DNA of 34,339 bases from Solirubrobacterales bacterium (lineage in GTDB: Bacteria > Actinomycetota > Thermoleophilia > Solirubrobacterales > Solirubrobacteraceae): the NCBI GenBank assembly GCA_019239445.1, contig JAFAZV010000270.1, forward strand, positions 1-34,339, read 5' to 3'. The position numbers and the translations under genes are program-made. The notes under the pieces are model-generated. The model did not search any database and had not been told where the DNA came from. It saw nothing but the letters and a program-made list of their open reading frames with translations. Shown here in pieces: positions 1-20,835 of this stretch. Position 1 is the stretch's first letter. The number at the start of each line of letters is the position of its first letter.

Positions 1-666
1 ACGGTTCTCACGCGCGTCCGCGTCGACGCCCACGACTCGTCGTTCGTGCGGCCGACGAAGCCGATCGGCCGCTTCTTCGCTGACGAGCGAGCGGCTCGTG
101 CCGCGGTCAGTGGTCAGCTTGCTGTGGCCCCCGACGCTGGACGAGGCTGGCGTGCGGTAGTGCCAAGCCCGAAGCCGCAGCAGATCGTTGATGTGTCGGC
201 AATCAAGCTGCTCCTCGACCGCGGCATGGTGGTGATCGCGGCCGGCGGCGGCGGTATCCCAGTCGCCCGCGGCAAGCGAGGCCTGGTCGGGCAGCAGGCG
301 GTGATCGACAAAGACCGCGCATCCGCGGTTCTAGCGCAAGCCGTCGACGCCGACCTGCTGGTGATGCTGACCGCTGTCGAATGCGTAGCGGTCGATTTCG
401 GAACCCGCTGGCAACGCGACATGGCGCGGCTCACGATCTCGGACGCACGGGAGCTCCATGCCTCCGGCGAGTTTCCCGCCGGGAGCATGGGACCCAAGGT
501 CGAGTCGGCGATCACCTTCGTTCAGGGCGGCGGGCGCGGCGCGATCGTCACCTGCGCCGAGCGGCTGCGCGACGCGATTCGGGGAACCGCGGGCACGCGC
601 CTCGTTCCGGATGCGCAAGGACCCTCGGCGACGGTTTGGAGCGGCGCCGGCACGGTGGCCGCATGA
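1..666 (+). CDS. arcC: Carbamate kinase (C-terminal part; 5' end outside window)
   Basis: Frame 1 open from base 1 (TVLTRVRVDAHDSSFVRPTKPIGRFF...); motifs GMVVIAAGGGGIPV, DKDRASAVLA, LLVMLTAVE, GSMGPKVESAITFV typical of carbamate kinase. Confidence 0.93.
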   Translation, partial: TVLTRVRVDAHDSSFVRPTKPIGRFFADERAARAAVSGQLAVAPDAGRGWRAVVPSPKPQQIVDVSAIKLLLDRGMVVIAAGGGGIPVARGKRGLVGQQAVIDKDRASAVLAQAVDADLLVMLTAVECVAVDFGTRWQRDMARLTISDARELHASGEFPAGSMGPKVESAITFVQGGGRGAIVTCAERLRDAIRGTAGTRLVPDAQGPSATVWSGAGTVAA

Positions 667-2117
667 GCTGGCACATCCGGGTACTCGCGAACCGCTACGC
701 CGACAGCGTCCGGCTGATGAGCATCTCGCGAGCGATCCGCGAGCAGCAGGACGTTCGTCGCTGCGAGCTCGGCATGGGAACGGCTGCAAACCTCGAGTTC
801 CTCGCTGGGCTGGGCGCAGACGCGCAGGCCTCGCCTGTTGACCTGGTCATCGCCGTCGAAGCGGACGACGGCGCCGCTTCAAACGCGCTGGTCTTGGCCG
901 GGCAGCAACTCGAGGCACTGCACGCGCCGAGGGGCGCCGACGAGCGTGGCGCTGTTAAGGCGCGCTCGCTCGGCCAGGCTGCCCGGTTGCTCGACGCCGC
1001 GAACATCGCGCTGATCTCGGTACCAGGCGAGTACGCCGCACTCGAGGCGCACCAGGCGCTGTCGGCGGGTTTGCACGTGTTCCTCTTCTCCGATCACGTC
1101 CCGCTCGAGGCAGAACTCGAGCTGAAACGGCGCGGGGCCCACCTCGGGCTTCTCGTCATGGGCCCCGAATGCGGTACGGCTATGCTCGGAGGCATCGGGC
1201 TCGGCTTCGCCAACGTCGTCGCACCCGGACCGGTCGGAATTGTCGCCGCGGCGGGGACGGGAGCCCAGGAAAGCGCGTGTCTGCTCGACGCCGCCGGCGT
1301 GGGGGTCTCCCACATCGTTGGCGTGGGTGGACGCGACCTGTCGGCCGAAGTCGGAGGGATCATGTTCCGACGCGGGATGCAGCTGCTGGCCGAAGATCCC
1401 GGCACCGAGACGCTCCTGCTCGTTTCGAAGCCACCGTCCCCCGACGCCGTACGCGCGCTGGCGGGCGACGTTCCGGAGGGCGTCCGAGTGATCGCGGCCT
1501 TCGTGGGGTGGGAGGGCGGCGAGGCTCCATTCGAGGTGCATTCAAGCCTCGAAGCCGGTGCCGCGGCCGCCGCTGGCACTGCGCCCCCCGACGCCTCGAA
1601 TCTCGCGCGGGCCGTCGACGCGCGGCGGGCGCAAACCTCGGGGTATGCGCTGCTCGGCCTCTACTCCGGCGGGTCGCTCGCCCACGAGGCGGCGACGATC
1701 CTCGAACCCGTGCTCGGGCCGATTGCGGGCAATGTGGGCGGTGGACCGTCCGATGAGCCGAGCGGCCACCGCATCTTCGACCTCGGCGAGGAGCAGTTCA
1801 CGCAGGGCCGGCCGCACCCGATGGTCGACCTCACCGCCCGAGTCGAGATGCTCGAGCGCGCCGCCGCCGATGAGCGGACCGGTTGCATCCTGATGGACGT
1901 CGTGCTCGGCTACGGTGCTCACCCCGATCCAGCCGGGGGCTTGTTCGACGCTGTGCGCCATGCGTCGAAGGGCGCGGCCGTGATCGCCCATGTCTGCGGG
2001 ACGGGGGGCGATCCGCAAGACGGGGCCCGGCAGCAGAACAGGCTTCGCGACGCCGGAGCGCTCGTGGCCCCCTCGAACGCGGCAGCCGCGCGGCTGGCCC
2101 TGCGTGCGGTCGGTTAG
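663..2117 (+). CDS. fdrA: FdrA-like acyl-CoA synthetase/carbamoyltransferase-subunit family protein
   Basis: ATGA overlap with previous gene; MGPECGTAMLGGIGLGFANVV, GIVAAAGTGAQE, GVGGRDL, SKPPSPDAV motifs of the succinyl-CoA-synthetase-like FdrA family. Confidence 0.88.
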   Translation: MSWHIRVLANRYADSVRLMSISRAIREQQDVRRCELGMGTAANLEFLAGLGADAQASPVDLVIAVEADDGAASNALVLAGQQLEALHAPRGADERGAVKARSLGQAARLLDAANIALISVPGEYAALEAHQALSAGLHVFLFSDHVPLEAELELKRRGAHLGLLVMGPECGTAMLGGIGLGFANVVAPGPVGIVAAAGTGAQESACLLDAAGVGVSHIVGVGGRDLSAEVGGIMFRRGMQLLAEDPGTETLLLVSKPPSPDAVRALAGDVPEGVRVIAAFVGWEGGEAPFEVHSSLEAGAAAAAGTAPPDASNLARAVDARRAQTSGYALLGLYSGGSLAHEAATILEPVLGPIAGNVGGGPSDEPSGHRIFDLGEEQFTQGRPHPMVDLTARVEMLERAAADERTGCILMDVVLGYGAHPDPAGGLFDAVRHASKGAAVIAHVCGTGGDPQDGARQQNRLRDAGALVAPSNAAAARLALRAVG

Positions 2118-2122
2118 TCGCC

Positions 2123-3316
2123 TTGCGGATCGCGATGCTCACGTACTCGCTGCGACCGCGCGGGGGCGTCGTCCACGCGCTCGAGGTCGCGGAGGCACTT
2201 TTCCGGCGCGGACACGAGGTCGAGTTGATGGCGCTCGGCCGTCCGCAGGACGTTTTCTTCCGCGACCCCGCGGTGCCGTGGCGGATCGTGCGCTACGAAC
2301 CGACCGATGCGCCCTTCGACACGCGCGTGCAGGCGATGCTCGACGCGTATCGCGATGGACTCGCCGCAGTGCTGCGGGACTTCGACGTGATCCACGCTCA
2401 GGATTGCTTGTCGGCAAACGCAGCGCTCGCCCTGCGCGACGCCGGGCTGATACCGCATGTGATTCGCACCGTTCACCATGTCGACGCGTTCACGTCGCCG
2501 TCGCTGATCGAGTGTCAGCGCCGCTCGATCCTCGATCCAGACGCCCTCCTGTGCGTCTCGGCACCGTGGCGCGCGTGGCTCGCGGGCGAGTTCGGGCGCC
2601 GAGCGCTGCTGGTACCGAACGGCGTTGACACGCGGCGCTATCGTCCCCCGGCCGATAGCGCCGAGCGTAGAAGTGACCGGATCGCGAGCGGATGCGACGC
2701 CTGCTTCACGGTTCTGGCGGTCGGCGGCGTCGAGCCTCGCAAAGGTTCGCTCACGCTGCTAGAAGCGTTCGCCGAGCTTCGCGAACTTGTGCGCGCCGTC
2801 GATCCGCTGTTAGTCATCGCGGGCGGCGCGACGCTGTTCGATTACCGGCACGAAGTGGAGCGCTTCCACTCCCGTGTGCGCGCCCTTGGGCTCGACGCGC
2901 GGGTACGGGTGCTCGGCTCTCTGCCGTGCCACGAGTTGGAGCGGCTCTACCGTGCCGCCGACGTGTTTGCCTTCCCCTCGATCACAGAGGGCTTCGGCCT
3001 CGCGGCGCTCGAGGCCGCGGCTTCGGGGCTGCCGGTGGTGGCGTCTGACCTGGAGGCTTTCAGGACCTTTCTCGAGCATGAACGTAGCGCGCTCCTGGTG
3101 CCGGTCGGCGACAGCGGTGCACTCGCCGACGCGCTTGTTCATCTGGCGTCGGACGCGCGTGAGCGTCAGCGCCTGGCCGCCGTCGGCCCGGAGCTCGCGC
3201 GCCGGTTCAGCTGGGATGACGCCGCGATCACCCACGAGCGCGTCTACGCCCAGCTCTTTACGCTCGGCCTCAACTCCGGCGGATCGCCTGCACCCGTGGC
3301 CGGGATCAGCGGCTGA
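2123..3316 (+). CDS. Family GT4-type glycosyltransferase, resembling the MSMEG_0565 family
   Basis: TTG start (alternative ATG at 2135); MLTYSLRPRGGVVHALEVAEAL, FDVIHAQDCLSANAAL, RTVHHVDAFTSPSLIECQ, PNGVDTRRY, FPSITEGFGLAALEAAASGLPVV. Confidence 0.85.
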   Translation: MRIAMLTYSLRPRGGVVHALEVAEALFRRGHEVELMALGRPQDVFFRDPAVPWRIVRYEPTDAPFDTRVQAMLDAYRDGLAAVLRDFDVIHAQDCLSANAALALRDAGLIPHVIRTVHHVDAFTSPSLIECQRRSILDPDALLCVSAPWRAWLAGEFGRRALLVPNGVDTRRYRPPADSAERRSDRIASGCDACFTVLAVGGVEPRKGSLTLLEAFAELRELVRAVDPLLVIAGGATLFDYRHEVERFHSRVRALGLDARVRVLGSLPCHELERLYRAADVFAFPSITEGFGLAALEAAASGLPVVASDLEAFRTFLEHERSALLVPVGDSGALADALVHLASDARERQRLAAVGPELARRFSWDDAAITHERVYAQLFTLGLNSGGSPAPVAGISG

Positions 3317-3317
3317 C

Positions 3318-3740
3318 ATGGCGGAGCAACTCGAAGTCAGCGCAAGCTGGATGGGCGGCTACATGTCGCGCGTTTGTGCCCGTGGTCACGAGATCGTGAT
3401 CGACGAGCCTTCATCGGCGGGCGGAAGCGACGGCGGGATGATGCCAACGGAAGCGTTCTGCGCCTCGATCGCAGCTTGCTTCTGCCTCGCGCTGGCGCAC
3501 GTGGCCGGCAAGCGCGGGCGGGAGCTGCCCGGGCTCCATGTCGTGGTGCGAGCGCAGCGCGCGGGGCGGGAGCTGCGCTATGCGCGCTTCGAGATCGAGG
3601 CGCAGGCTGACGTCGCCGAAGAGGTGCTGGGGAACCTGATCGAGCCAGCGCGCCGCGTGTGCTGGGTGTCGAACACGCTGGCCAGCGGAGTGCAGCTCAG
3701 CTATCGTTACACTCGCGTGGACGGCCATACACGAAGGTAG
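3318..3740 (+). CDS. OsmC family protein
   Basis: 140 aa; GGSDGGMMPTEAFCASIAACFCLAL resembles the OsmC/Ohr GPSPxExLLAALAxC motif. Confidence 0.75.
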   Translation: MAEQLEVSASWMGGYMSRVCARGHEIVIDEPSSAGGSDGGMMPTEAFCASIAACFCLALAHVAGKRGRELPGLHVVVRAQRAGRELRYARFEIEAQADVAEEVLGNLIEPARRVCWVSNTLASGVQLSYRYTRVDGHTRR

Positions 3741-3754
3741 AAAGGACCACCCGG

Positions 3755-4294
3755 GTGCTCCAGAATCGCTCGGAGCTTGAGCAGATGCTCCGCGGCCCCG
3801 GCAGCCTGGGCGCCGTCTTCGCGCGTCATGCCTACGGGATGCGCCGATGGGTCGAGTTGTTCGCCGTTCGCCTCCCGCAGATCGCCGACGCCCAGCTGAC
3901 GGAACTGGTGGCGTCGATCGTATGCCTGAACGCCAAGCACACGGTGCTATTCCGCGAGCGGGCGCTCGCCCACGGGGTCAACCCAGACGCATACGTCTGC
4001 CCGCCTGAGGGTCAGCTCATCTACGAGCGGATGGCACCGCTGGATGCCCAGCAGACGCTCGCTTATGCGCTCGGGTCGCTCGAGCACTTCGCGGATCTGC
4101 TCGCGGTTTACGCCGAGGTCGCTCGCGATCAGCGCGATGCCGAGGTCCTTGCCGCTGTGCGGGCCGACAACGATCGCTCCATCGCCCGGCTTCGCGAGGT
4201 TGTGGGGCATCCGGCTGGCCCATCGGCGGCCGCGCACGAGCTCTACCGCTTGCGTGAGCTGGCTGAGACGCCGCTGTATGCCAACGGGCACTGA
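3755..4294 (+). CDS. Ferritin-like (four-helix) protein of unknown function
   Basis: GTG start after gaaggtagaaagg; all-helical 179 aa with LNAKHTVLFRERA and SLEHFADLLAVYAEV helices carrying E/H residues. Confidence 0.5.
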   Translation: MLQNRSELEQMLRGPGSLGAVFARHAYGMRRWVELFAVRLPQIADAQLTELVASIVCLNAKHTVLFRERALAHGVNPDAYVCPPEGQLIYERMAPLDAQQTLAYALGSLEHFADLLAVYAEVARDQRDAEVLAAVRADNDRSIARLREVVGHPAGPSAAAHELYRLRELAETPLYANGH

Positions 4295-5141
4295 CACCGT
4301 CGCTAGCCCTACCTTCCTCGAGCTGCAGCGCGAGCTTGCCGTCCTCTCGCCTCGCGCCTGGCGCTTCGGCGCGCTGACGCTGGCGTCGCGCGCGGGGGCG
4401 CTGGTGAGCGAGGGATTGCGGATCGGCCACCGGTACGGGTTCGACTCCGGCTTGTTCATGGCGCACGTCTACGAGAACGCACCACGCGGGCGGACACGTG
4501 TGGGCACGGCGATCGACCGCCGCCTCCTCGCCCGGCGGACCTGTCAGGCGTTCCGCGAGATCCGCGTTCTTGCCCGGGACGCGCTCGATGAGGCGCTCGC
4601 GGCCGACGCATCTGGAGCTCCGGTCATCGCCGATCTCGCTGCAGGTCCGGCGCCTTACCTGTTCGAGGCGCTGTCCGCGCATCCCGCTGCCGTGGCGATC
4701 GTTGCCGACATCGATCCAGTTGCGCTCGCGCAAGCGCGTGCCGCGGCGAGGAACGTCGGCCTGGAGGGTCGCGCGACGTTTGTCAACGCCAACGCGTTTG
4801 AGCGCACTGCGCTGGCCGAACTGGAGCCCCGCCCCACGATCGTCATTGAGCTCGGGTTGTACGGCATTTATCCGGACGACGCGATGATCGAGCGCCATTT
4901 CCGCGATCTCGCCGAGACCGTCTCGCCGCAGCAGATCGTGCTCAACGTCCAGACCGAGAATCCCGAGATCGAGCACATCGCGAGGGTGTGGCGCAACGCA
5001 CGCGGCCAGCGCTGCGTGTGGCGGCTGCGGCCCCTCGAGCTGATCCTCCGATGGGCTGGCGCCGCAGGCTACGAAGCTGCGTCGATACGTGCGGACCGTC
5101 ACCGCATCTACCGCGTGGCGCGGCTCGAGCGGAGTCGCTGA
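4278..5141 (+). CDS. Class I SAM-dependent methyltransferase (Methyltransf_20-like)
   Basis: ATG overlaps previous gene; FMAHVYENAPRGRTRVGTAIDRRLL, VIADLAAGPAPYLFEAL, VADIDPVALAQAR Rossmann motifs. Confidence 0.7.
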   Translation: MPTGTDTVASPTFLELQRELAVLSPRAWRFGALTLASRAGALVSEGLRIGHRYGFDSGLFMAHVYENAPRGRTRVGTAIDRRLLARRTCQAFREIRVLARDALDEALAADASGAPVIADLAAGPAPYLFEALSAHPAAVAIVADIDPVALAQARAAARNVGLEGRATFVNANAFERTALAELEPRPTIVIELGLYGIYPDDAMIERHFRDLAETVSPQQIVLNVQTENPEIEHIARVWRNARGQRCVWRLRPLELILRWAGAAGYEAASIRADRHRIYRVARLERSR

Positions 5142-5150
5142 GGCGCAGCC

Positions 5151-6503
5151 GTGAGCGTCCTTACCTGGACCGAGCCGCGGCCGAGCGCCGTCGCGATCTC
5201 GGACCGCCTACGCCGGGTCCAGGCGAGCCACCACGGCATGTGGAACTACGTCACCTACCGCGACGCGATCCACATCCTCCAGATCGACCCGAGCACTATC
5301 TACCCCGATGGAAGCACGCGACTGGACCCAAACTCGTGGGCGGATCTTGGCTGGCTGACGTGCTTCTGCGGCCCACCCGCCTCGGCAGTACAGGCGATGA
5401 AGGATGCGGTGAGCGCGCCGTCGTTGAATCAGTACACGCCTGACCTGATCGAGCCGCTGCGCGAGCTCGCGGCGGTACATCTTGGCCGCGCGCGAGGGGA
5501 GGACTTCGAAGTCGTGGGCACCGAGGGCGCGCAGGCCGCGCTCGCGCTCGCGCTGCTGGCGACGGTGAATCCCGGCGACGAGGTGATCGTCAGCGACCCC
5601 GGTTACTTCCATGTTCCTTCCGCCGTGCTCGCCGCCGGCGGCGTGCCGGTGGTCGTGCGGATCGATGCTGGAAGCGGCTTTCGTTTCGATCCGGACGCCG
5701 TGGCGAGCGCGCTCACCCGCCGCACGGCAGCAATTTGCTTGATCGATCCGGTGAACCCATACGGAACCATGCAGAGCGCCGACGAGCTGGAGGCGTTCGC
5801 CGCGCTGGCCGAGCGTCACGATCTGCTGCTCCTACACGACGTCACCCACGGGCCGCTAGCGCTCGACGCAGGTCGAGCCTTCAGCCCCCTCCCGGCGCTC
5901 GCGCGAACCGAGCGAGCCGTGGCGCTCATGTCCGTCTCTCACTGCTATGGGATGGCCGGGGCACGGCTCGGGTTCCTTGGCGGGCCGCCAGGTTTCGTCC
6001 GCGGCTGCCTTCAGCTCAAGGCCGCGCTTACTCGCCTGAACACGAATTTGATCTCTCAGCATGGTGCCTTGGCCGCACTGGGCGACGCCGACTACCTACG
6101 TCGCGCCGAGCAGACCATCGTCGGAAACCTCTCCCACCTGGAGGAGACGCTGAAGCGCGTTCCCGGCGTCCGCCTCGTCGTGCGCCCGCAGCGTGGACTG
6201 GCGTGCGCGATTGACGTATCCGAAACCGGCGCAAGCGCACAAGAGCTGATGGTTGCCCTGTTCGCGCGTCGCGTGGCCGTCTACCCCGGTGATGGCCTGG
6301 GCGAGACGATTGCGGCCAGCACCATCCGGGTGAACCTCTCCCGCCCGGATGCATGGGCCATGGAGCACCTGCGCGCGGTGCTCCTCGACGCCGTGGAGGA
6401 GGCCGCGTCCGGCCGCTGGCGGGCGCCGGTGGCATCGCTACTCGAACGCAAGGGCACTGAGCGCGCCGCCATGCTAGCGCGGCAGATGCGAGGCTCGCGA
6501 TGA
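5151..6503 (+). CDS. PLP-dependent aminotransferase class I/II homologue with His in place of the PLP lysine
   Basis: DPVNPYGTM (Asn-Pro-x-Gly), LLLLHDVTHG (Asp), SVSHCYGMAGARLGF (canonical SxSKxxGxxGxRxG), IRVNLSRPD (Arg). GTG start. Confidence 0.85.
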   Translation: MSVLTWTEPRPSAVAISDRLRRVQASHHGMWNYVTYRDAIHILQIDPSTIYPDGSTRLDPNSWADLGWLTCFCGPPASAVQAMKDAVSAPSLNQYTPDLIEPLRELAAVHLGRARGEDFEVVGTEGAQAALALALLATVNPGDEVIVSDPGYFHVPSAVLAAGGVPVVVRIDAGSGFRFDPDAVASALTRRTAAICLIDPVNPYGTMQSADELEAFAALAERHDLLLLHDVTHGPLALDAGRAFSPLPALARTERAVALMSVSHCYGMAGARLGFLGGPPGFVRGCLQLKAALTRLNTNLISQHGALAALGDADYLRRAEQTIVGNLSHLEETLKRVPGVRLVVRPQRGLACAIDVSETGASAQELMVALFARRVAVYPGDGLGETIAASTIRVNLSRPDAWAMEHLRAVLLDAVEEAASGRWRAPVASLLERKGTERAAMLARQMRGSR

Positions 6504-7669
6504 ACGTGCGCGAGTTGATCGCTGACCACGGCTCGCCGCTGTGGCTCGCCGACGCAGACCTTTTCAGCGCGAACCTTCGGGCATTCGAGTCAGTATGGAA
6601 GGGACATTGGCCGCAGTCGCGGATCGCGTACTCCTACAAGACGAACCGCTTGGCGTGGTTCCTGCACCGCGTCGAGCGCGCCGGCGGCTCGGCCGAGGTG
6701 GTGTGTCTTGCCGAGTACGAACTTGCGCGCCGTGTGGTCGCAGATCCGACGAGGATCGTCGTCGATGGTCCGGCCAAGCCTGAGCCCTTGCTCACGCGTG
6801 CCGGCGCAGACGGCGCGCTCGTGATTGCGGATTCACTGGCCGAGCTCGAGCGGGCGGCGGTCGCCGGCGTCAGACGCGTGGGTTTACGGGTAGCCGTGAA
6901 CAGCTTCACCGGGACGCCGAGTCGGTTCGGGATCCCGCCGGCGGAGATCCTCGCGGCTGCGCGGGCTGCCGCGGCCCTCGGCCTGTCGGTGCGCGCGCTG
7001 TCGGTTCACCTCGTGTCAACTGATTTCGAAGCGACCAGCGGGCGCGTCGTCGTATCGTGGCCACGCGCGCCCGACGAGCACGCCGCGGCGGCGGCGCTGC
7101 TCGCCCGCCTCGCTTCCCAGTTGGGGCTCGAGTCGCACGCCATCGACGAGATCGACCTCGGCGGCGGGCTTCCTGCGGCCTCGGCATGCGCCGGCCATGC
7201 ACGCGCCGTGACTCGGGCGCTGCGAGACCACGGCTTCTCAGGCGGGCTGCTGCTCGAGCCGGGCCGCGCCGTTGCGGCAGACGCCGTCGATCTCGCGTTA
7301 TCGGTCGTGGCGATCAAGAGCCTGGCCTGTGGAGCGCGCTGCGTGATCTGCGACGCTGGCACGAACTTCCTGCCCGGGGCGCTGACGGGCCCGCCCCGCC
7401 TCGACGTGCCCGGCCGCCGCGGCCCCCGTTCACCTGCGCTCGTCACGGGGCCGCTGTGCCTGAACGCTGATGTCGTGCATCCGTGTGCGCAGCTGCCGGC
7501 GCTCGAACCCGGCGACCTGCTGCTCGCGCGCGCCGTGGGTGCGTATCAGCAGAGCGCCTCGACCGAATTCGGGGAGGCCCGGCCGCGCGTTCTCGTCAGC
7601 GAGCGAGGAACTTGGAGGCCGGCGGATGATCTCCATCACCGCAGGCAAGTCGAACGTCAGGCAGCCTAG
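6500..7669 (+). CDS. Fold-type III PLP-dependent decarboxylase (diaminopimelate/ornithine decarboxylase-like)
   Basis: ATGA overlap; YSYKTN (PLP Lys), IDLGGGLP, LLEPGRAVA, GPLCLNADVVHPC, GDLLLARAVGAY. Confidence 0.85.
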   Translation: MNVRELIADHGSPLWLADADLFSANLRAFESVWKGHWPQSRIAYSYKTNRLAWFLHRVERAGGSAEVVCLAEYELARRVVADPTRIVVDGPAKPEPLLTRAGADGALVIADSLAELERAAVAGVRRVGLRVAVNSFTGTPSRFGIPPAEILAAARAAAALGLSVRALSVHLVSTDFEATSGRVVVSWPRAPDEHAAAAALLARLASQLGLESHAIDEIDLGGGLPAASACAGHARAVTRALRDHGFSGGLLLEPGRAVAADAVDLALSVVAIKSLACGARCVICDAGTNFLPGALTGPPRLDVPGRRGPRSPALVTGPLCLNADVVHPCAQLPALEPGDLLLARAVGAYQQSASTEFGEARPRVLVSERGTWRPADDLHHRRQVERQAA

Positions 7670-7691
7670 GTGGTTCGCTAAGAGAGGAGCA

Positions 7692-9059
7692 ATGATGACC
7701 GAGCGCTTGATCGTCATCGGAGGGGGTGGCGCGGGAACCGCGGCATCCACGATCGCCAAACGCGCGAATCCCAACCTTCACGTCAGCGTCTTCACCGAGT
7801 ACCCGGACATCGCCTATTCGCCGTGTGGAATTCCGTACGCCCATGGACGCGAGATACCGGAGTTCGAGAACCTGTTCCTCTCCACCGTGCAGCGCTACGT
7901 CGATGACGGGCTCGACATGCGGATGGAAACCTGCGTCACAGACATCGACCTCGCCCGCCGCACGATTACTGCACGCAACGCCCACGAGGGCTTCGACAAG
8001 CTCATCCTGTGCACCGGATTCGTCTGGGAGCAGCCCGACGTACCCGGCGCGAATCTCGAAGGCCTGCATTACGTGAAGGACATTCGCCGCGCGATGGAAT
8101 TCGACAAGGAGCTCGACACAATGAAGCGGGCGGTGGTAATCGGCGGCATGTGGCTCGGCGTCGAGATGTCGGGCGCTCTCGCGCGACGCGGCCTTGAGGT
8201 CGACTTCATCGACGACGGGCCATGGCTGCTCTCTGAGCTCGTCGATCCGGACGTCGCGGAGCCCGCGCAGCAGGCGCTCGAGCGCCTCGGCGTAAACGTT
8301 CGTACGGGAACCAAGCTGATCGGCTTTGAGGGGTCCGACGGCCGTATGCGCGCAGTGTCGACGAGCGCGGGCGAGCTCGCCTGCGACGTGGCAGTCATCT
8401 GCCTGCACAAGCTCCCGAACACGACGCTAGCTTCGGCCATCGGGCTCGAGCTCGGCACCACCGGCGGGGTCGTCGTCGATGACCACATGCGCACCTCCGC
8501 GCCCGGCGTCTGGGCGGCCGGGGACGTGGTCGAGGTCCCGCACGGCCTGTCGATGCTTCCGATCCGGGGGCTCACTGGATCCCATGCCTACGCACAGGGG
8601 CGCGTGGCTGGAGCCAACGCAGCCGGCGAGGATCGTTCGTATGACCCGGTGTGGATTCCTTGGGCGTTCATGTCCGGCGACTACACGATCGGCGGATTCT
8701 CCATCGGCGAGACCTTGGCCGAGGCGATGGGCATCCCCTACGTGCTCGCGAGCGGAGTCGGCGTGTCTCGCGCTCGCTACTTCCCGGGCGCGGCGCGAAC
8801 GCACGTGAAGCTGCTCGCGGAGCCTGGGACGCTTCGGCTGATCGGCGCGCAGCTGCACGGAGGCGAGGGAATCAAGGAGCGTTGTGACTTCCTCGCGTTC
8901 GTTGGCAAGCGCGGAGCGACGCTCGAGGACCTTGCCTGGATGGAGAACATCTACTCTCCGCCGATCGGCGCCCTGTTCGAGCCGATCCAGATCGCGGCCC
9001 AGGCCGGCCTGGCAGAGCAGAAGGTGCACCAGCCGGAGCGCGAGAAGGTGACCATATGA
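7692..9059 (+). CDS. FAD-dependent pyridine-nucleotide disulfide oxidoreductase (CoA-disulfide reductase/NADH oxidase-like)
   Basis: RBS gagaggagc; LIVIGGGGAGTAAS, YSPCGIPY (redox Cys), VVIGGMWLGVEMSGALARRG, VWAAGDVVEVPH. Confidence 0.88.
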   Translation: MMTERLIVIGGGGAGTAASTIAKRANPNLHVSVFTEYPDIAYSPCGIPYAHGREIPEFENLFLSTVQRYVDDGLDMRMETCVTDIDLARRTITARNAHEGFDKLILCTGFVWEQPDVPGANLEGLHYVKDIRRAMEFDKELDTMKRAVVIGGMWLGVEMSGALARRGLEVDFIDDGPWLLSELVDPDVAEPAQQALERLGVNVRTGTKLIGFEGSDGRMRAVSTSAGELACDVAVICLHKLPNTTLASAIGLELGTTGGVVVDDHMRTSAPGVWAAGDVVEVPHGLSMLPIRGLTGSHAYAQGRVAGANAAGEDRSYDPVWIPWAFMSGDYTIGGFSIGETLAEAMGIPYVLASGVGVSRARYFPGAARTHVKLLAEPGTLRLIGAQLHGGEGIKERCDFLAFVGKRGATLEDLAWMENIYSPPIGALFEPIQIAAQAGLAEQKVHQPEREKVTI

Positions 9060-9382
9060 CGCTTTCCGAGCGCAAACAGCGCCTGCGCGAGCGCTCGGAG
9101 TACGTGCTACGGCTAGCTGCGATGGATGAGGTTGCGCGCCGATACCCCGACCAGGCAACCAAAGCTGCCCTTCCCCGAACGAACCCGTTCTGGCGCTGGG
9201 TGTTCGTCCCCCTGTACCGCCGCGTGCCGTGGTCGTTCAAGCGTGACGCGATGCGCAGACTGAAGATGACGGCTCAAGGTTGGCCGCAAGACGCACGCCG
9301 CTTTGGTGAGCCGTGGCGGCCACCAGCGCCGCCGGCGCGTCCCACCGCTCTCGAAGGTGCTCGGGGGGCGCCTGCATCCTGA
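9056..9382 (+). CDS. Hypothetical basic protein, 108 aa
   Basis: ATGA overlap with upstream ORF and continuity of the operon; no recognised motif (MTLSERKQRLRERSEYVLRLAAMDEVARRYPD...). Confidence 0.55.
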   Translation: MTLSERKQRLRERSEYVLRLAAMDEVARRYPDQATKAALPRTNPFWRWVFVPLYRRVPWSFKRDAMRRLKMTAQGWPQDARRFGEPWRPPAPPARPTALEGARGAPAS

Positions 9383-9930
9383 GCGACGGGGCGTTCACGG
9401 TCACGCGCGATTTGCTGCGTGCGGAACTGGCCGGAGATCTCAGCCGCGGCGGATATGTCCTGCGCAGCGACGCCTCGGCCTCCGTGACCCGGCGCTACTT
9501 CGACAAGTTCCTCGTCCTCAGTCGACCCGGTCTGCTCACGCGCGCGGCGCGACTGCTCGCGGACCTCGTCGCCGAGGATTGCGAGCGACTTGCCGTCACG
9601 GGAGTGCCCTCTGCGACGCTGGCAACCGCTCTCGCACAGGAAACCGGGCTGACGCTGCTACTCGGGCGGGAACGGCAAGCAGGCGCGTTCGGGGGTGAGC
9701 TTTCGGCGGGCACACGCGCGACGCTGGTTGAGGACGTTGTCTTCAGCGGCCAGACAGCACTGGCAGGCGCCCGCGCGCTGCGCGAAGCGGGCGCTGAGCC
9801 GCTGGAAGTCGTCGCTCTGCTCGACCGTCAGTCTGGCGCGGCCCAGCTGCTCGCGTCCGAGGGACTGCCACTACGAGCGTTGTTCACCGAGGCGCAGCTG
9901 TTGGAACAGCCCGGCCGGCCGCCGCTATGA
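9313..9930 (+). CDS. Orotate phosphoribosyltransferase-like (type I PRTase fold) protein; start uncertain
   Basis: RYFDKFLVLSRPGLL, AVTGVPSATLATALAQETG, TLVEDVVFSGQTALAGARALREAGAE resembling the PRPP motif. GTG at 9313 overlaps the previous ORF by 70 nt; a later non-ATG start is possible. Confidence 0.75.
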   Translation: MAATSAAGASHRSRRCSGGACILSDGAFTVTRDLLRAELAGDLSRGGYVLRSDASASVTRRYFDKFLVLSRPGLLTRAARLLADLVAEDCERLAVTGVPSATLATALAQETGLTLLLGRERQAGAFGGELSAGTRATLVEDVVFSGQTALAGARALREAGAEPLEVVALLDRQSGAAQLLASEGLPLRALFTEAQLLEQPGRPPL

Positions 9931-11174
9931 CTGAGCCGCCAATTGGTGAGCAGTCCGCCAATGCCAGCGCGAAACGAGTGCGCGAGCGACTGGCCGAGCT
10001 CGCCACGATCGGCGGCGAGGGCGGCGGCGGTGTCACCCGCCTCGCCTACACCGAAGCTGAACGTGAGGCCCATCGTCGTTTCGCCGATTGGGCAACTCTC
10101 GAGGGGGCCCGGTGCCATGTCGACCCGGCGGGCAACACAGTCGCCATTTTCCGCGACGGCGCTCCCTACTTCCTCATCGGTTCGCACCTCGACACAGTCA
10201 TGCACGGCGGCCGATACGACGGTGCCGCAGGCGTCGTCGCCGCGCTGGAGGCGGCAAGCGCGCTGAGCGAGACGCGCCACGGCGTTCGTGTGGTTGCGTT
10301 CGCGGCAGAAGAGGGAGCGCGGTTCGGCCGCCCGACGATCGGCAGTTCGCTGGCCGCCGGAGTACTAAATGATCTCGGTCTCGGAGCACTGCGCGACGCA
10401 GACGGAGTCACGCCAGCGGCCGCGGCGGCCGAAGTCGGCCTCAGCCCGACCGAGACTCAGCCTTGGCTCGATAGCGACGTGGCGTGCTTCTTTGAGCTAC
10501 ACATCGAACAGGGACGCCAGCTCGAGAGCGGCGCGGCGCGCATCGGGCTCGTTGATGCGATCGCGGGCAGCGTACGGCTCCAGTTTGAGCTCACCGGCAG
10601 AGCAGATCACTCCGGCGCGACGCCCATGCGGATGCGCGCCGATGCGCTGGCTGCCGCGAGTGAGCTCGTGCTCGCCGTCGAGGAGATCGCGCGGCGACAT
10701 CGATCAACCGTCGCGACGGTCGGTCGTGTGCAGGTCCGCCCAAACAGCGTAACCACGATCCCCGGCCACGTGATGCTGTGGGTCGACTTGCGCGACGTCG
10801 ATCCCGACCTTCAACGACGCGCTGCGCGCCAGGTGCTCGAGACAGCCATGGACATCACCGAAGCTCGAGGCCTGCACATGGGCAGTCGCGTGCTCTCCGA
10901 ACAGCCGCCGATCGTATTGCCGGCGTGGCCACGCGCGATCCTCTACGACGACTGCCGAGCGCGCAACCTGACCTACCGCGTGCTCTCGAGCGGCGCCGGA
11001 CATGATGCCGCCGTGGTCGCGCGACGGGCCCCCGCGGCGATGTTGTTCATTCCGTGCGTTGATGGGGTCAGCCATTCTCCCCGCGAACAGGCCAGTCCCG
11101 AAGACATTGCCCTCGGCGCCGAGGTTCTCTGCAGCGCGCTGCGCCGGACCGACGCGATCATCGCCAGCCAATGA
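9927..11174 (+). CDS. M20-family Zn-dependent N-carbamoyl-L-amino-acid hydrolase/allantoate amidohydrolase
   Basis: ATGA overlap; GSHLDTVMHGGRYDGAAGVVAALEA, AAEEGARFG, FELHIEQGRQLE, GRADHSGATPMRMRADAL, SGAGHDAAVVA, DGVSHSPRE. Confidence 0.92.
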   Translation: MTEPPIGEQSANASAKRVRERLAELATIGGEGGGGVTRLAYTEAEREAHRRFADWATLEGARCHVDPAGNTVAIFRDGAPYFLIGSHLDTVMHGGRYDGAAGVVAALEAASALSETRHGVRVVAFAAEEGARFGRPTIGSSLAAGVLNDLGLGALRDADGVTPAAAAAEVGLSPTETQPWLDSDVACFFELHIEQGRQLESGAARIGLVDAIAGSVRLQFELTGRADHSGATPMRMRADALAAASELVLAVEEIARRHRSTVATVGRVQVRPNSVTTIPGHVMLWVDLRDVDPDLQRRAARQVLETAMDITEARGLHMGSRVLSEQPPIVLPAWPRAILYDDCRARNLTYRVLSSGAGHDAAVVARRAPAAMLFIPCVDGVSHSPREQASPEDIALGAEVLCSALRRTDAIIASQ

Positions 11175-15123: not shown

Positions 15124-16092
15124 ATGATCCACCGGATACCCAGCGGCACGCGCGACGTCCTGCCCGACGAAATGCGCGAGCTGCGCGCCATGACCGACCG
15201 GATGCGCGCTGTGTTCGAGCGTGCCGGGTACGGCGAGATCTACACGCCGGTGCTCGAGTACGAGGGAACGTTCGAGCGGGCGAATCTCGCAGCGCCGCGG
15301 CCGGCGTACAGGATGTTCGACGAGGACGGACAGGTGCTGGTGCTGCGCTCCGATATGACCGTGCCGATCGCGCGGCTGGTGTCGACGCGCTATCAGGCCG
15401 CGACGCCTCCGCTGCGCTTCTCCTACATCGCGTACGCGTATCGCGGAGTGCGACCGCAACGAGGTCACTCGCGGGAGTTGCTGCAGGCCGGTGTGGAGCT
15501 GATCGGCGCGCCGGGGGCCGTGGGCACGGCGGAGGCGCTGACGGTGCTGTGTCACGCGCTCGATGCCGCCGGCCTCAAGACCTACCGAGTCGGCCTCGGA
15601 GACGCGTCGCTCTACCCAGCGCTGTTGCAGGCAGTCGGGGTCGAGGCTGAGCAGCGCGAGCGGATCCTCTCCGAGCTCGTGACCGGTGACTTCGTTGGCG
15701 TCGAGCGTGAGCTCGAATCGCTCCACCTGGCCCAGGACGAGCGCGAGCTGCTGCTGCGCGTGCCGCGGACGCGCGGCGGTCCCGAGGTTCTCGAGGGCTT
15801 GAGCGGAGCGCTGCACGCGGCTGGAACCGGGATGCGCGCGGTGCAGGCGCTGCTGCCAGGTCCCGTGGCCGAGCGGATCATCTTCGACTTCGGACTCGTG
15901 CGAAGCCTCGGCTACTACACCGGCGCGGTGTTCCAGGTATATGACCCGGCCTATGGCGTCCCGATCGGGAGCGGCGGCCGGTACGACGACCTGCTCGGCC
16001 GGTTCGGTCGTCCGCTGCCGGCGGTCGGCTTCGCGCTGAATGTCGAGCGCGTGCACATCGCGCTGACAGGCGAGGAGCGCGGGCTGGCGTGA
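15124..16092 (+). CDS. hisZ: ATP phosphoribosyltransferase regulatory subunit
   Basis: HisRS-like core without an evident anticodon domain (322 aa): IPSGTRDVLPDEM, FRFSYIAYAYRG-type motif 2, IGSGGRYDDLLGRFG; followed by short-form hisG. Confidence 0.9.
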   Translation: MIHRIPSGTRDVLPDEMRELRAMTDRMRAVFERAGYGEIYTPVLEYEGTFERANLAAPRPAYRMFDEDGQVLVLRSDMTVPIARLVSTRYQAATPPLRFSYIAYAYRGVRPQRGHSRELLQAGVELIGAPGAVGTAEALTVLCHALDAAGLKTYRVGLGDASLYPALLQAVGVEAEQRERILSELVTGDFVGVERELESLHLAQDERELLLRVPRTRGGPEVLEGLSGALHAAGTGMRAVQALLPGPVAERIIFDFGLVRSLGYYTGAVFQVYDPAYGVPIGSGGRYDDLLGRFGRPLPAVGFALNVERVHIALTGEERGLA

Positions 16093-16715
16093 ACGAGCTG
16101 CGGATCGCGGTGCCGCGGGGTGTGCTCCTCGACGAAACGCTCGACCTGCTCGACCGGCTCGGGCTCGACACGAGCGAAGTTCGGGCCAATGAGCGCAAGC
16201 TACTGTTCGAGGAGGTCGGGATCGTGACCATGCGACCTTCCGACGTGCCGACGTACGTAGCGGCCGGAGCCGCCGACATCGGGATCACCGGCAAGGACGT
16301 GCTGATGGAGCAGCCGGAGACCGAGGTGCTCGAGCTCGTCGACCTCGGCTACGGGCAGTGCAAGATGGTGCTGGCGACCGTTGCGGGAGAGGACCGGGCG
16401 GCGGAGGCACTGCGCCGGCTCGGAGTGGTGCGGATCGCGACCAAGTACCCACGGGTCGCGGCCCGGCACTTCCTCGAGACCGGTCGCCAGGCGGAGATCG
16501 TCGAGGTCAAGGGATCGGTCGAGCTCGCCCCGCTGACGGGCCTGGTCGAGGGCATCGTCGATCTCACCGCAACCGGCACGACGTTGCGCGAGAACGGTCT
16601 CGTCGTACGGGAGGAGATCGCCGAATGCACGGCGCGGCTGATCGCAAACCCGGTGGCGCACAGGCTCAAGGCACGCGCGATCGACGGGCTGCTGGAGCGA
16701 CTGAGTGCGGTGTGA
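16089..16715 (+). CDS. hisG: ATP phosphoribosyltransferase catalytic subunit, short form
   Basis: 208 aa; LRIAVPRGVLLDETLDLL, ADIGITGKDVLME, RIATKYPRVAARHF, VKGSVELAPLTGLVEGIVDLTATGTTLRENGL. Confidence 0.95.
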   Translation: MNELRIAVPRGVLLDETLDLLDRLGLDTSEVRANERKLLFEEVGIVTMRPSDVPTYVAAGAADIGITGKDVLMEQPETEVLELVDLGYGQCKMVLATVAGEDRAAEALRRLGVVRIATKYPRVAARHFLETGRQAEIVEVKGSVELAPLTGLVEGIVDLTATGTTLRENGLVVREEIAECTARLIANPVAHRLKARAIDGLLERLSAV

Positions 16716-17964
16716 GCGAATCCGGCTGACGGGAGACCCCGGCGCCGCCGCGCGCCGGCTTCGCGCGCTTGTGCCTTCACCCAGCTCGGTGCAGGACGCC
16801 GTGGCCGAGATCGTCGCGCAGGTGCGAGGACAGGGCGACGCGGCGATCGCCGGGTATACGCGGCGCTTCGACACCCAGGATGCCGAGCCGGCAGCGCTGC
16901 GCGTAGATTTGGAAGCCCTTGCGAGCGCCGCCCTCGGCCTCGAGCCAGATCTCGCGGCGGGTCTGAAGGAAGCGATACACAACGTCGGGGTTGTTGCGGG
17001 CGCGTGGCGAGAGGAGAACGACCACGTCGTCGAGCTCGGACGGCACCGTGTCACGTTGCGCACGGCACCAGTCGCTCGCGCCGCAGTCTACGTTCCGGGA
17101 GGACGGGCCCCGTATCCCAGCACGGTGGTGATGGGTGTCGTCACCGCCCGGGCTGCCGGCGTTCGCGAGGTGGTGGTCTGCGCGCCGCCGGGTCACGACG
17201 GGGAGCTCCACCCGGTGATCCTGGGTGCGTGTCAACTCACGGGTGCGCGGGAGGTCTACCGGATGGGAGGAGCGCAGGCGATCGCGGCGCTGGCGTATGG
17301 GAGTGAATCCGTGACACCCGTCGACGTGATCGTCGGTCCGGGCAACCTGTACGTGCAGGAGGCCAAGCGCCAGGTCTCGGCTCAGGTCGGGATCGACGCG
17401 TTCGCCGGGCCGAGCGACCTCGTGGTCATCGCCGACGACGGAGCTGATCCAGAGCTTCTCCGGCTCGACCTGCTGGCGCAGGCCGAGCATGGGCCGGGTG
17501 CGCTGGTGATCGGCGTTTCGAGCTCGACATCGCTGCTTGGCGGGATCGCGGAGCAGCTCGCCGCGGCACCTGAGACCGGCGCGGTGGCCGCGCTGGTGCA
17601 GGTTGGAAACGCACGCCAGGCGCTTGCGCTGGCGCAGGCGTTCGCGCCCGAGCACCTCGAGCTCGTCGGCCCCGCCGCTGAGGCTCTGGCCCCGGAGATC
17701 ACGGCCGCGGGCTGCGTGTTCGTCGGCGCCAATGCCGGAACGGCGTTCGGCGACTACATCGCGGGCTCGAACCACGTGCTTCCGACGAACGGCGCGGCGC
17801 GGTTTGCCTCCGCGTTGTCGCCGCGCCACTTTCGCCGCAGCTTCACCGAAGTCCGGGTCGACGACGGCAGCGCGCTGGCGCGAGCTGCGGCGCCGATCGC
17901 GCGGGCGGAGGGATTCGAGTTGCACGCCCGGTCGATGGAGGCCCGCATCCGCGAGAATGGCTAG
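16705..17964 (+). CDS. hisD: Histidinol dehydrogenase
   Basis: YVPGGRAPYPSTVVMGVVTARAAGVREVVVC, VDVIVGPGNLYVQEAKRQV, GPSDLVVIAD, LAQAEHGP, GSNHVLPTNGAARF. Confidence 0.96.
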   Translation: MRCERIRLTGDPGAAARRLRALVPSPSSVQDAVAEIVAQVRGQGDAAIAGYTRRFDTQDAEPAALRVDLEALASAALGLEPDLAAGLKEAIHNVGVVAGAWREENDHVVELGRHRVTLRTAPVARAAVYVPGGRAPYPSTVVMGVVTARAAGVREVVVCAPPGHDGELHPVILGACQLTGAREVYRMGGAQAIAALAYGSESVTPVDVIVGPGNLYVQEAKRQVSAQVGIDAFAGPSDLVVIADDGADPELLRLDLLAQAEHGPGALVIGVSSSTSLLGGIAEQLAAAPETGAVAALVQVGNARQALALAQAFAPEHLELVGPAAEALAPEITAAGCVFVGANAGTAFGDYIAGSNHVLPTNGAARFASALSPRHFRRSFTEVRVDDGSALARAAAPIARAEGFELHARSMEARIRENG

Positions 17965-17966
17965 GC

Positions 17967-18557
17967 ATGGCGCGTACGGCTGAAATCGACCGCAGCACGC
18001 GGGAGACCGATGTGCACGTTGCGTTGAGGCTCGAAGGCGACGGCCGTGGTGAGCGCGAGACCGGTGTCGGCTTCTTCGATCACATGCTCGACCTGTTGGC
18101 TCGTCACGCTCGCCTCGAGCTGCACGTACGGGCGAGCGGCGACCTGCATACGGGTGCTCATCACACGGTCGAGGACGTCGGCATCTGCATCGGGCAGGCA
18201 CTCGATCGCGCGCTCGGCGACCGGGCCGGGATCGGGCGCTTCGGCCAGGCCACGGTGCCTATGGACGAAGCGCGCGCCGCGTGCGCTATCGACATCTCCG
18301 GCCGTGGGCTGTGCGTGTTCGCCGGGACGCTGCCCGCGGGCGCGATCGGGAACTTCGACCACGAGCTTTTGGAGGAGTTCTTCCGCGCGCTGGCGGTGAA
18401 CGCCAAGCTGACGCTCCATCTCACGCTCGAGGCAGGATCCAACGCGCACCACATGATCGAGTCCGCGTTCAAGGCGGCGGCCCGTGCGCTGCGGATGGCG
18501 GTGGCGCTCGATTCGACCGAGCGAGGCGTTCCCAGCACCAAGGGGATGCTGCGGTGA
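17967..18557 (+). CDS. hisB: Imidazoleglycerol-phosphate dehydratase
   Basis: ARTAEIDRSTRETDVHVAL, GVGFFDHMLDLLARHA, HHTVEDVGICIGQAL, GSNAHHMIESAFKAAARAL. Confidence 0.96.
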   Translation: MARTAEIDRSTRETDVHVALRLEGDGRGERETGVGFFDHMLDLLARHARLELHVRASGDLHTGAHHTVEDVGICIGQALDRALGDRAGIGRFGQATVPMDEARAACAIDISGRGLCVFAGTLPAGAIGNFDHELLEEFFRALAVNAKLTLHLTLEAGSNAHHMIESAFKAAARALRMAVALDSTERGVPSTKGMLR

Positions 18558-19219
18558 GCGCGACGCTGCGGATCGCGGTCGTCGACTACGGAATGGGAAA
18601 CCGGCGCTCGGTCCAGAAGGCGCTCGAGCATGTCGGCGCACAGGCGACGATCACGCGCGAGCACGAGGAGCTGGGGCTCGCCGACGGCCTCGTACTACCG
18701 GGCGTAGGCGCGTTCCCGCAGGCGATGGCGAATCTCGAGGCGCTCGGCCTGCGGGAGCTGATTCTGGCTCGAGCCGCCGCGGGCACGCCAGTGTTAGGAA
18801 TCTGCCTTGGAATGCAGCTCCTGTTCGAGCGCTCGATCGAGCTCGAGCCCACCGACGGCCTCGGCCTGATCCCGGGCGAGGTCACCTGGCTGGACGCCGG
18901 CGGCCGGCGCATCCCGCACATTGGCTGGAACGAGGTTCGCTTCGGACGCGCCTCTCGTCTCACTGAGGGTCTACCGCTCCACGGCGCGGCGTTCTACCAC
19001 GTTCACTCGCTGGCGGTCAGGCCGAGCGACCCGCGCGACGTGATCGCCACCACCGAGTACGGCGAGCGGTTCGCGACGATCGTCGAGCGTGACGCCGTAC
19101 TCGGCGTGCAGTTCCATCCCGAGAAGTCGTCGCTGATCGGATTGCGGATGCTCGCCAACTTCGGGGCGATCTGCGGCGGAAGGGCGCGGGAGCCGGCCGG
19201 CGCGGCGGCGCGGCGATGA
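18554..19219 (+). CDS. hisH: Imidazole glycerol phosphate synthase glutamine amidotransferase subunit
   Basis: GTG start overlapping hisB stop; IAVVDYGMGNRRSV, LPGVGAFPQAM, GICLGMQLLFE, GVQFHPEKS. Confidence 0.95.
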   Translation: MSATLRIAVVDYGMGNRRSVQKALEHVGAQATITREHEELGLADGLVLPGVGAFPQAMANLEALGLRELILARAAAGTPVLGICLGMQLLFERSIELEPTDGLGLIPGEVTWLDAGGRRIPHIGWNEVRFGRASRLTEGLPLHGAAFYHVHSLAVRPSDPRDVIATTEYGERFATIVERDAVLGVQFHPEKSSLIGLRMLANFGAICGGRAREPAGAAARR

Positions 19220-19947
19220 TCCTTCTACCTTCGGTGGACATCCTCGGCGGCAAGACGGTCCGCCTCGCCCAGGGCGACTTCGACGCCCAAACGACCTACG
19301 ACGCCGATCCCATCGACGCCGCGCGACGGTGGGTGGCCGAAGGCGCGCGCGCGCTACATGTGGTCGACCTCGACGGCGCGCGCAGCGGCACACCATCGAA
19401 TCTGGCTCATGTCGAGAAGATCACGGGCGAGGTCGAGGTGCCGGTTCAGGTCGGTGGCGGCCTGCGCACGATCGAGGCGGTGAATCAGGCGCTGGCGGCG
19501 GGGGCCGCTCGTGTCGTGCTCGGCACGGCCGCGTTCAGCGACCTCGACTTCCTCGACACCGCGGTAGCGGAGCATGCGGATCGGGTCGTGATATCGCTCG
19601 ACGCCCGCAACGGGCTGCTGGCGCGCTCGGGGTGGACCGAGCAGACGGATATCCCGGTCGAATCGGTCGTGCAGCTGATGCACGATCGCGGCGTACGGCG
19701 GTTCGTGTTCTCGAGCATCGACGCGGATGGAACCCTGGGAGGTCCTGATGTGGAAGGCACGAAACGGATCGCGCGAGCGATCCGCGGGAGCTTCATCTAC
19801 TCAGGCGGAATCTCGACGCTCGAGGATCTGCTCCTGCTGGCGAGCTTGCGCCAGGTCAACCTGTCCGGCGTGATCGTTGGCAAGGCGCTCTACGAACGCA
19901 GGTTCACCGTGGCCGAGGCGCATTCGGTCCTCGACGGCCTCACCTAG
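19216..19947 (+). CDS. hisA: 1-(5-phosphoribosyl)-5-[(5-phosphoribosylamino)methylideneamino]imidazole-4-carboxamide isomerase
   Basis: [55 protein letters not shown]. Confidence 0.95.
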
Positions 19948-19951
19948 CGGC

Positions 19952-20713
19952 TTGCACTACAAGCGCGTCATCCCGTGCCTCGACGTCGACGCCGGACGCG
20001 TGGTCAAGGGGATCGGCTTCCTCGACCTCCGGGACGCGGGCGACCCGGTCGAGCTCGCGTCGCGCTACGACGAGGCGGGCGCCGACGAACTCGTGTTCCT
20101 CGACATCACGGCGACCTCGGACAAGCGCGAGACGGTGGTCGAACTCGCGCGCCGCGCCGCTGATGAGGTCTTCATCCCGTTCACCATCGGCGGTGGCGTC
20201 CGATCGATCGCCGACGCGCAAGCGGTGCTCGATGCCGGCGCGGACAAAGTGTCAATCAATTCTGCGGCGTTGGCCCGGCCAGCGCTGATCGACGAGCTGG
20301 CGCGAACGTTCGGCGCGCAATGCGTGGTCTTGGCGATCGACGCCAAGGCCCAAGAGGGGGGAAGCTGGGAGGCCTACGTAGCCGGCGGGCGGCACGCGAC
20401 CGGTCGGGACGCGGTGGTCTGGGCACAAGAAGGGACCGAACGCGGCGCGGGCGAGATACTGCTCACGAGCATGGATCGCGACGGCACGAGCGACGGCTAC
20501 GACCTCGAGCTCATACGAGCTGTTGCGCGGGCAGTGCGGGTGCCTGTGATCGCCTCAGGCGGGGCGGGTGAACCCGAGCATCTGGCGGCGGCGCTCGAGG
20601 CCGGGGCGGATGCCGCACTGTGCGCGTCGATATTTCACTACGGGCACCACACGGTTCCGGAGGTCAAGCGGCGACTGGCGGCACGCGGCGTCGCGATCAG
20701 ACCTAGCGCTTAA
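19952..20713 (+). CDS. hisF: Imidazole glycerol phosphate synthase cyclase subunit
   Basis: TTG start; [90 protein letters not shown]. Confidence 0.96.
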
Positions 20714-20763
20714 CCCGCGCGCGGGGGGAGTGTCGTCCACGCGGGAGTTCGCAGGGCTGACCA

Positions 20764-20785
20764 GCGGCCGTGCTCACCCGGCCGC
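20764..20785 (+). terminator. Possible hairpin after hisF (gcggccg-tgctcacc-cggccgc)
   Basis: Perfect 7-bp inverted repeat ~50 nt after hisF stop; only a weak downstream A/T-rich stretch. Confidence 0.3.
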
Positions 20786-20835
20786 GTCGGCAATGATCAA
20801 GTTATTTGTTGTATCCGGCTGCGAGAGCGCCGCGA

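Follow-up and report, generated by a model that had tools for sequence, protein, structure and literature searches.

The closest described systems to the locus considered here are the Nit1C gene cluster, the gpr operon of M. smegmatis and the allFGHK genes of E. coli. The locus itself is an operon at positions 1-11174 of a 34,339-nt contig of a Solirubrobacterales bacterium (JAFAZV010000270.1; "the window" below is this whole contig), together with the divergent genes that adjoin it in related genomes. Nit1C (Podar 2005; NitBCDEFGH) was described through a set of core families (PMC1199592), and in Pseudomonas it is needed for growth on cyanide, via the nitrilase NitC (PMC11049912). The gpr genes (MSMEG_0565-0572) are strongly induced under nitrogen starvation and give protection from peroxide (PMC6039565). 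In E. coli, AllFGH converts oxalurate into carbamoyl phosphate and oxamate, with AllK as the catabolic carbamate kinase; the oxamic transcarbamylase (OXTCase) works in both directions (PMC11326118).

The locus is most aptly described as a Nit1C/gpr-related cluster that includes an OXTCase-type carbamoyl module (AllF, which is FdrA, with AllG, AllH and carbamate kinase). The operon in the window would form the right-hand arm of a nitrogen-scavenging cluster that runs in both directions, and the left arm, running from a DsrE-like gene to allG-allH, would amount to a Nit1C core without the nitrilase. Genomes, contigs, loci and families are labelled G, C, L and f where they must be told apart, and operon genes 5 to 12 are g5 to g12.

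Contig C21, from the same genome, and six Thermoleophilia relatives carry the left arm. A PuuR-like XRE-cupin regulator lies directly upstream of carbamate kinase (on C21 and in the relatives); divergent from it are genes for a DsrE-like protein of the MSMEG_0572/Sll0783 type, a 224-aa protein here called x5, an amidohydrolase (PF04909), an MSMEG_0568 radical SAM protein and an MSMEG_0567 GNAT protein, followed by a convergent sll0787-type AIR-synthase-like (AIRS) gene. This arm adjoins carbamate kinase and FdrA in G009, G016 (partly), G404, G122, G147 and G167. The DsrE-like protein matches TIGR04044 with 206 bits in L008 (cut-off 110) and has an 85% orthologue on C21; the radical SAM protein matches TIGR04043 with 376 bits in L008 and 367 bits on C21 (cut-off 304); and the GNAT protein is above the TIGR04045 cut-off in L008. 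TIGR04049 is the best match for truncated AIRS-like genes, which score below the full-length cut-off. AllG (PF06545) and AllH (PF11392), Pfam's "oxamate carbamoyltransferase subunits" and the remaining two subunits of OXTCase besides AllF, are above cut-off in relatives, adjoin AIRS in G016, G122, G404, G147 and G167, and occur as a pair in the same genus as well. The sequence-only reading had proposed looking leftward for DUF1116/DUF2877 genes or a regulator, and in the locus of the relatives AllG, AllH and the PuuR-like regulator are what is found there.

The window is a complete contig (C373) of a 4.3-Mb genome in 462 contigs, whose close relatives are Solirubrobacterales metagenome-assembled genomes; its first gene, carbamate kinase, is therefore cut by the left end. 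The only matching 5′ fragment of such a gene in the genome is at the end of C21, on the minus strand (residues 1-69), which leaves about 34 codons missing between the two contigs. Synteny with G016 and G009, whose copies of the gene are intact, is the basis for placing them next to each other.

Common to Nit1C and this locus are the DsrE-like ORF1/NitB, the radical SAM protein (NitD), the GNAT protein (NitE) and the AIRS-like protein (NitF), and the Burkholderia-type and Agrobacterium Nit1C clusters have an MSMEG_0565-type glycosyltransferase, as does the window (2135-3316, plus strand; GT4; TIGR04047, 391 bits, cut-off 260). The core families of the left arm match those described for Nit1C, and with the glycosyltransferase they make the locus a relative of Nit1C and gpr. 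Strict Nit1C membership fails, since there is neither a nitrilase nor an MSMEG_0569 or MSMEG_0570 protein: neither the ~100-aa MSMEG_0570 nor an MSMEG_0569-type flavoprotein was found, g10 having no family match and g9, a flavoprotein resembling CoA-disulfide reductase, taking the place of the MSMEG_0569 oxidoreductase. The nitrilase family PF00795 has no match on the cluster contigs of the seven Thermoleophilia genomes, and a nitrilase hidden elsewhere in the locus was rejected on this ground. Added relative to Nit1C are AllFGH, carbamate kinase, OsmC, x5, g10 and the built-in regulator. The gpr operon has the same core families, and the OsmC and thiol-reductase-like proteins here fit a redox role, but it lacks the carbamoyl module and is controlled by GlnR/SoxR, whereas the regulator here is part of the cluster. 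The operon had been read as a candidate for an undescribed nitrogen pathway; it is not without known relatives, as the comparison places it around the Nit1C/gpr gene set.

The AllF, AllG, AllH and kinase families of E. coli allFGHK are all found in the locus, two of them in the window: the 3′ two thirds of an AllK/ArcC-like carbamate kinase (1-666, plus strand; TIGR00746, 1.7e-68; PRK12352), intact in syntenic copies in L007 and L008, and an AllF/FdrA subunit of the OXTCase type with a fold like that of the succinyl-CoA synthetase alpha subunit (663-2117, plus strand; PRK06091 FdrA, 4.7e-117; E. coli FdrA structure 3dmy, 1.6e-71). The suggestion that these two form a carbamoyl-phosphate/ATP module agrees with this. 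The locus differs from allFGHK in having a distinct AllG subfamily, in being joined to Nit1C genes and in having no allantoin genes, none of which was seen in any cluster. A plain allantoin, hydantoin or pyrimidine pathway, already judged a poor fit from the window alone, was rejected on account of the missing partner genes and the distinct AllG.

The gene order AIRS, GNAT, radical SAM, amidohydrolase, x5 and DsrE on one side, and regulator, carbamate kinase, FdrA, glycosyltransferase, OsmC, g5, methyltransferase (g6), aminotransferase-like g7, decarboxylase-like g8, flavoprotein and g10 on the other, does not vary among the loci, complete or partial, of the six relatives, which belong to two Thermoleophilia families (f1 and f5; 46-93% identity). 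The core set recurs in families f5, f25, f44, f46 and f49, bearing out the claim of a conserved functional unit. In nearly all loci the presence table contains AIRS, GNAT, radical SAM, DsrE, regulator, carbamate kinase, AllF, AllG, glycosyltransferase, OsmC, g9 and x5; it under-detects proteins that are small or divergent, g10 and AllH among them, and pairwise searches found g10 in most loci. Confined to Thermoleophilia are g7 and g8 (f1, f5) and g5 and g6 (f1 and one f5 genus).

In a survey of 397 Actinomycetota genomes, 22 have a radical SAM protein above cut-off and 48 have AllG. AllG and a strong radical SAM match (220 bits or more) occur together in 13, and in nine of these, from f5, f25, f44, f46 and f49, the two genes are at most 15 kb apart; two of the remaining four, G502 and G638, are divided among short contigs. 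The chance of linkage in at least nine of 13 is about 5e-17, taking the target as 30 kb of a 4-Mb genome. This bears on the possibility that a Nit1C remnant and an FdrA/carbamate kinase operon, unrelated to each other, have come to lie head to head by chance in a few relatives. The distribution is indeed patchy (a methyltransferase orthologue occurs in three of the 25 same-genus genomes searched, including the window's own), but a coincidence of this kind is very improbable: the linkage persists in six families despite changes in gene order and extends to a second phylum, and between-family identities, about 35-65% for most proteins, argue against one recent shared transfer. The single-pathway interpretation had been staked on co-occurrence beyond close relatives, and the core is present in several actinobacterial families and an alphaproteobacterium.

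MSMEG_0568-like radical SAM proteins of about 265-330 bits also occur in another context, lacking the remaining core genes, in G626, G470, G510, G636, G665, G490, G459, G607 and G500 (L114-L122); the one in G665 has an AIRS-like neighbour.

In a maximum-likelihood tree, all 15 AllGs from clusters, among which three f5 sequences are nested, stand apart from 21 other AllGs with support of 100/100, and three genomes (G016, G433, G757) each have one AllG of the cluster kind and one of the other. The AllGs of L160 (G075), L045 and L046 are nested among the cluster sequences, and no such cluster was seen adjoining them.

Pseudomonadota were covered through a plasmid collection, in which the core set appears on plasmid NZ_AP027143.1 of the methanotrophic alphaproteobacterium Methylocystis iwaonis (L161, 13119-33088). 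Its genes encode g9, g10, DsrE, AllG, AllF (annotated only as "oxidoreductase"), the glycosyltransferase, x5, the regulator, AIRS, GNAT, radical SAM and OsmC proteins; the cluster also holds a Nit6803 nitrilase and coenzyme M genes, and a cydAB-like oxidase adjoins it. Cyanide-insensitive respiration usually has a bd-type oxidase of the CioAB kind as its partner. The amidohydrolase had no match in the plasmid collection.

Every complete cluster examined holds one candidate for a nitrile step. In f1, f5, f25, f44 and f46, and in G603 and G746, whose clusters are more canonical and showed no nitrilase open reading frame (ORF), this is the amidohydrolase, whose metal ligands (HxH, H, H, D) are kept in 14 loci; its position suggests that it replaces a nitrile- or amide-hydrolysing step. 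In G476 and G679 (by ORF inspection; G476 has two such genes), Agrobacterium and Methylocystis it is a nitrilase-family enzyme. In G560, G502 and G521 it is a cobalt-type nitrile hydratase: genes for the transporter CbtA and for nitrile hydratase beta, alpha (with a CTLCSC motif) and activator lie between the glycosyltransferase and AllH genes (L111 15624-18149 in G560; L134; L135).

Beside OsmC, the f25, f44, f49 and Methylocystis clusters have ComA, two aspartase/fumarase-family lyases (ASL-type and ADSL-type) and DUF7714; the f46 cluster has the lyases and DUF7714. These match the coenzyme M biosynthesis genes described for Mycolicibacterium (xcbB1-C1-D1-E1-F1; PMC8727900); DUF7714 is perhaps XcbF1, going by its length (about 308 aa) and position. 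ComA and the two lyases do not occur together in the Thermoleophilia clusters, which have the g7 and g8 genes instead. Most of these Thermoleophilia genomes do have a ComA gene elsewhere, and in the five examined it is not beside such lyases; no claim is therefore made that the window lineage makes coenzyme M. In the window genome a ComA-family gene is found at C382 7322-8029 (L127), with no coenzyme M partners adjoining.

Given the observed gene content, linkage, conservation, retained motifs and separate AllG subfamily, we infer a catabolic direction, a substrate class and each of the reactions as follows, and put the chances at about even that the cluster serves to recover the nitrogen of a nitrile- or ureide-type compound in the form of carbamoyl phosphate, going to ATP, ammonia and CO2. 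Processing of a nitrile- or ureide-type substrate would leave its nitrogen in a carbamoyl group, with nitrilase, nitrile hydratase or amidohydrolase taking the nitrile step according to lineage. An AllF-AllG-AllH complex would then transfer the carbamoyl group to phosphate, and carbamate kinase would turn the carbamoyl phosphate into ATP and carbamate, which would give ammonia and CO2. The CoA-disulfide-reductase-like flavoprotein, OsmC and DsrE probably serve a thiol or persulfide carrier or redox protection.

Several observations weigh against this proposal. AllG is absent from the assembled window genome, which is what a location in the unassembled DNA past C21 would lead one to expect; AllH went undetected in several loci, and the search of the Methylocystis cluster brought up no carbamate kinase. 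For the amidohydrolase a profile search gave no PDB relative at E ≤ 1e-3, so that its reaction is a guess. The scheme leaves the roles of the glycosyltransferase, methyltransferase, aminotransferase-like and decarboxylase-like proteins unexplained. OXTCase being reversible, the complex could act as the carbamoylating enzyme of a biosynthesis, and the measured gpr phenotype is peroxide resistance, not nitrile use (PMC6039565).

The main alternative is a biosynthetic role, in which the glycosyltransferase, GNAT, AIRS, radical SAM, methyltransferase and PLP-fold (pyridoxal phosphate) proteins would build a nitrogen-starvation or redox cofactor or a glycosylated small molecule, with AllFGH carbamoylating an intermediate from carbamoyl phosphate. 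GT4, GNAT, radical SAM and ATP-dependent AIRS-like enzymes are what one typically finds in cofactor or natural-product synthesis, the glycosyltransferase is weakly similar to the thiol-synthesis enzymes MshA and BshA, and coenzyme M biosynthesis genes are embedded in the clusters of other lineages; peroxide protection by gpr and the bidirectional OXTCase fit as well (PMC6039565; PMC11326118). We consider this a real possibility but rather unlikely, as Pseudomonas needs Nit1C for growth on cyanide (PMC11049912), some of these clusters include a nitrilase or nitrile hydratase, and E. coli uses the homologous AllFGH/kinase set in catabolism.

Ureide catabolism not involving nitriles is another possibility. 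The amidohydrolase superfamily includes many ring-opening enzymes, and the one here would open the ring of a cyclic ureide or imide; AllFGH would phosphorolyse the resulting N-carbamoyl product, much as happens when allantoin is broken down along its oxamate branch; an M20 carbamoylase-family enzyme coupled to the operon in this genome would be an extra exit. The AllFGHK system is known from oxalurate breakdown only (PMC11326118). This explanation seems unlikely: no allantoin or hydantoin genes accompany any cluster, the M20 gene is absent from all the other clusters examined, the cluster AllG subfamily is distinct from the general one, and the Nit1C core and the nitrile hydratase linkage would be left unexplained.

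The boldest proposal, which we regard as a long shot, is cyanide assimilation on a low-molecular-weight thiol with energy recovery. Cyanide would be captured as a thiocyanate ester on a thiol (coenzyme M in some lineages, another thiol here), nitrile hydratase or amidohydrolase would hydrate this to a thiocarbamate, and AllFGH, with the succinyl-CoA-synthetase-alpha fold of AllF, would phosphorolyse the thiocarbamate to carbamoyl phosphate and free thiol; carbamate kinase would yield ATP and the flavoprotein would keep the thiol reduced. If true, carbamoyl groups would have a carrier chemistry of a new kind, and cyanide would be used with a yield of ATP.

We know of no biochemistry for the Nit1C accessory genes since their description in 2005, and to our knowledge AllFGH has one known role only. 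That Nit1C and AllFGH are stably linked in two phyla, in some cases together with nitrile hydratase and coenzyme M genes, provides concrete, testable hypotheses on what Nit1C makes or breaks, and suggests an uptake of nitrile or ureide nitrogen with ATP recovery, a route so far undescribed. It also assigns a set of Actinomycetota genes annotated as FdrA, DUF1116 or CoA-disulfide reductase to one uncharacterised pathway. No earlier description of the joint cluster was found in an incomplete coverage of the literature; PMC12625717, on nitrifiers, does not describe it as far as it was read.

Within the window, the ORF listing gives twelve consecutive ORFs at 1-11174, all on the plus strand and tightly coupled, so that the sequence-only reading was right about the operon; its calls of carbamate kinase, FdrA, glycosyltransferase, OsmC, flavoprotein, phosphoribosyltransferase (PRTase) and M20 enzyme are likewise backed by family profiles. 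Four junctions are 4-nt overlaps (at 663, 6500, 9056 and 9927), one is a 17-nt overlap (at 4278), and others are gaps of 17, 1, 14, 9 and 22 nt; the PRTase start is ambiguous, a GTG at 9313 giving a 70-nt overlap with the preceding gene and a TTG at 9412 a 29-nt gap.

After the glycosyltransferase come an OsmC-family gene (3318-3740; PF02566, 8e-16) and g5 (3755-4294), a predicted ferritin-like helical bundle. The AlphaFold model of g5 (pLDDT 85) matches the ferritin-like structure 3ez0 in Foldseek (TM 0.77, probability 1.00, E 3.6e-3), in favour of the earlier ferritin-like call, which gains no sequence-family support: g5 has no family match, and a sequence search against the PDB gave nothing significant. 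The left-arm x5 model (pLDDT 81) has no PDB match at E ≤ 0.001. Next, g6 (4278-5141) encodes a Methyltransf_20 family methyltransferase (PF12147, 3e-40) with 60-70% identity in six relatives.

Two PLP-fold proteins had been proposed, and one of them keeps its lysine: g8 (6500-7669; PF02784/PF00278), of the diaminopimelate/ornithine decarboxylase fold, has the motif YSYKTN intact. The other, g7 (5151-6503; class I/II aminotransferase fold, PF00155, 6e-35), is a fold-type I aminotransferase relative resembling GntC and VioD. When g7 SVSHCYGMAGARLG is aligned with FAKTYAMTGWRVG of 1j32, a His stands at the PLP-lysine position (VSHCYGMAGAR against FAKTYAMTGWR), so that the catalytic lysine of this fold type is not present; the His is retained in nine of ten orthologues. 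ColD has His in place of this Lys, and g7 may work like ColD or be non-catalytic; going by its residues, it should not carry the name aminotransferase.

The flavoprotein g9 (7692-9059; TIGR03385, 6e-68) resembles CoA-disulfide and CoA-persulfide reductases, its PDB matches including the CoA-persulfide reductase 8a56, and their single redox Cys (AYSPCGIPY) is invariant in 17 loci. It is followed by g10 (9056-9382), a conserved protein of about 100 aa with homologues in other cluster loci, including Methylocystis.

The last two genes, g11 (9313-9930, or from 9412; orotate-PRTase-like; PRK13809, 1e-14) and g12 (9927-11174; M20 carbamoylase/allantoate amidohydrolase family; TIGR01879, 352 bits, cut-off 204), are coupled to the operon in the window genome only, and are therefore not to be used for pathway inference. 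They are ruled out as core members by their absence from all the other clusters examined, which removes the M20 hydrolase as a pillar of the earlier N-carbamoyl argument and takes the PRTase, too, out of the conserved unit.

TauE/SafE-like membrane proteins (by eye), possibly anion or sulfonate exporters, are encoded beside or inside two clusters (L027 4817-5554; L063/L064, stitched, 20202-20972). Farther along the window, ARAGORN reports a tRNA-Arg (tcg) at 32773-32847 on the minus strand, in the low-complexity 3′ part of an rpsB-like gene (31832-32998, plus strand), probably a false positive. A histidine biosynthesis run lies downstream of murA at 15124-20713 (HisZ-like, HisG and HisD, then HisH-, HisA- and HisF-like frames by inspection).

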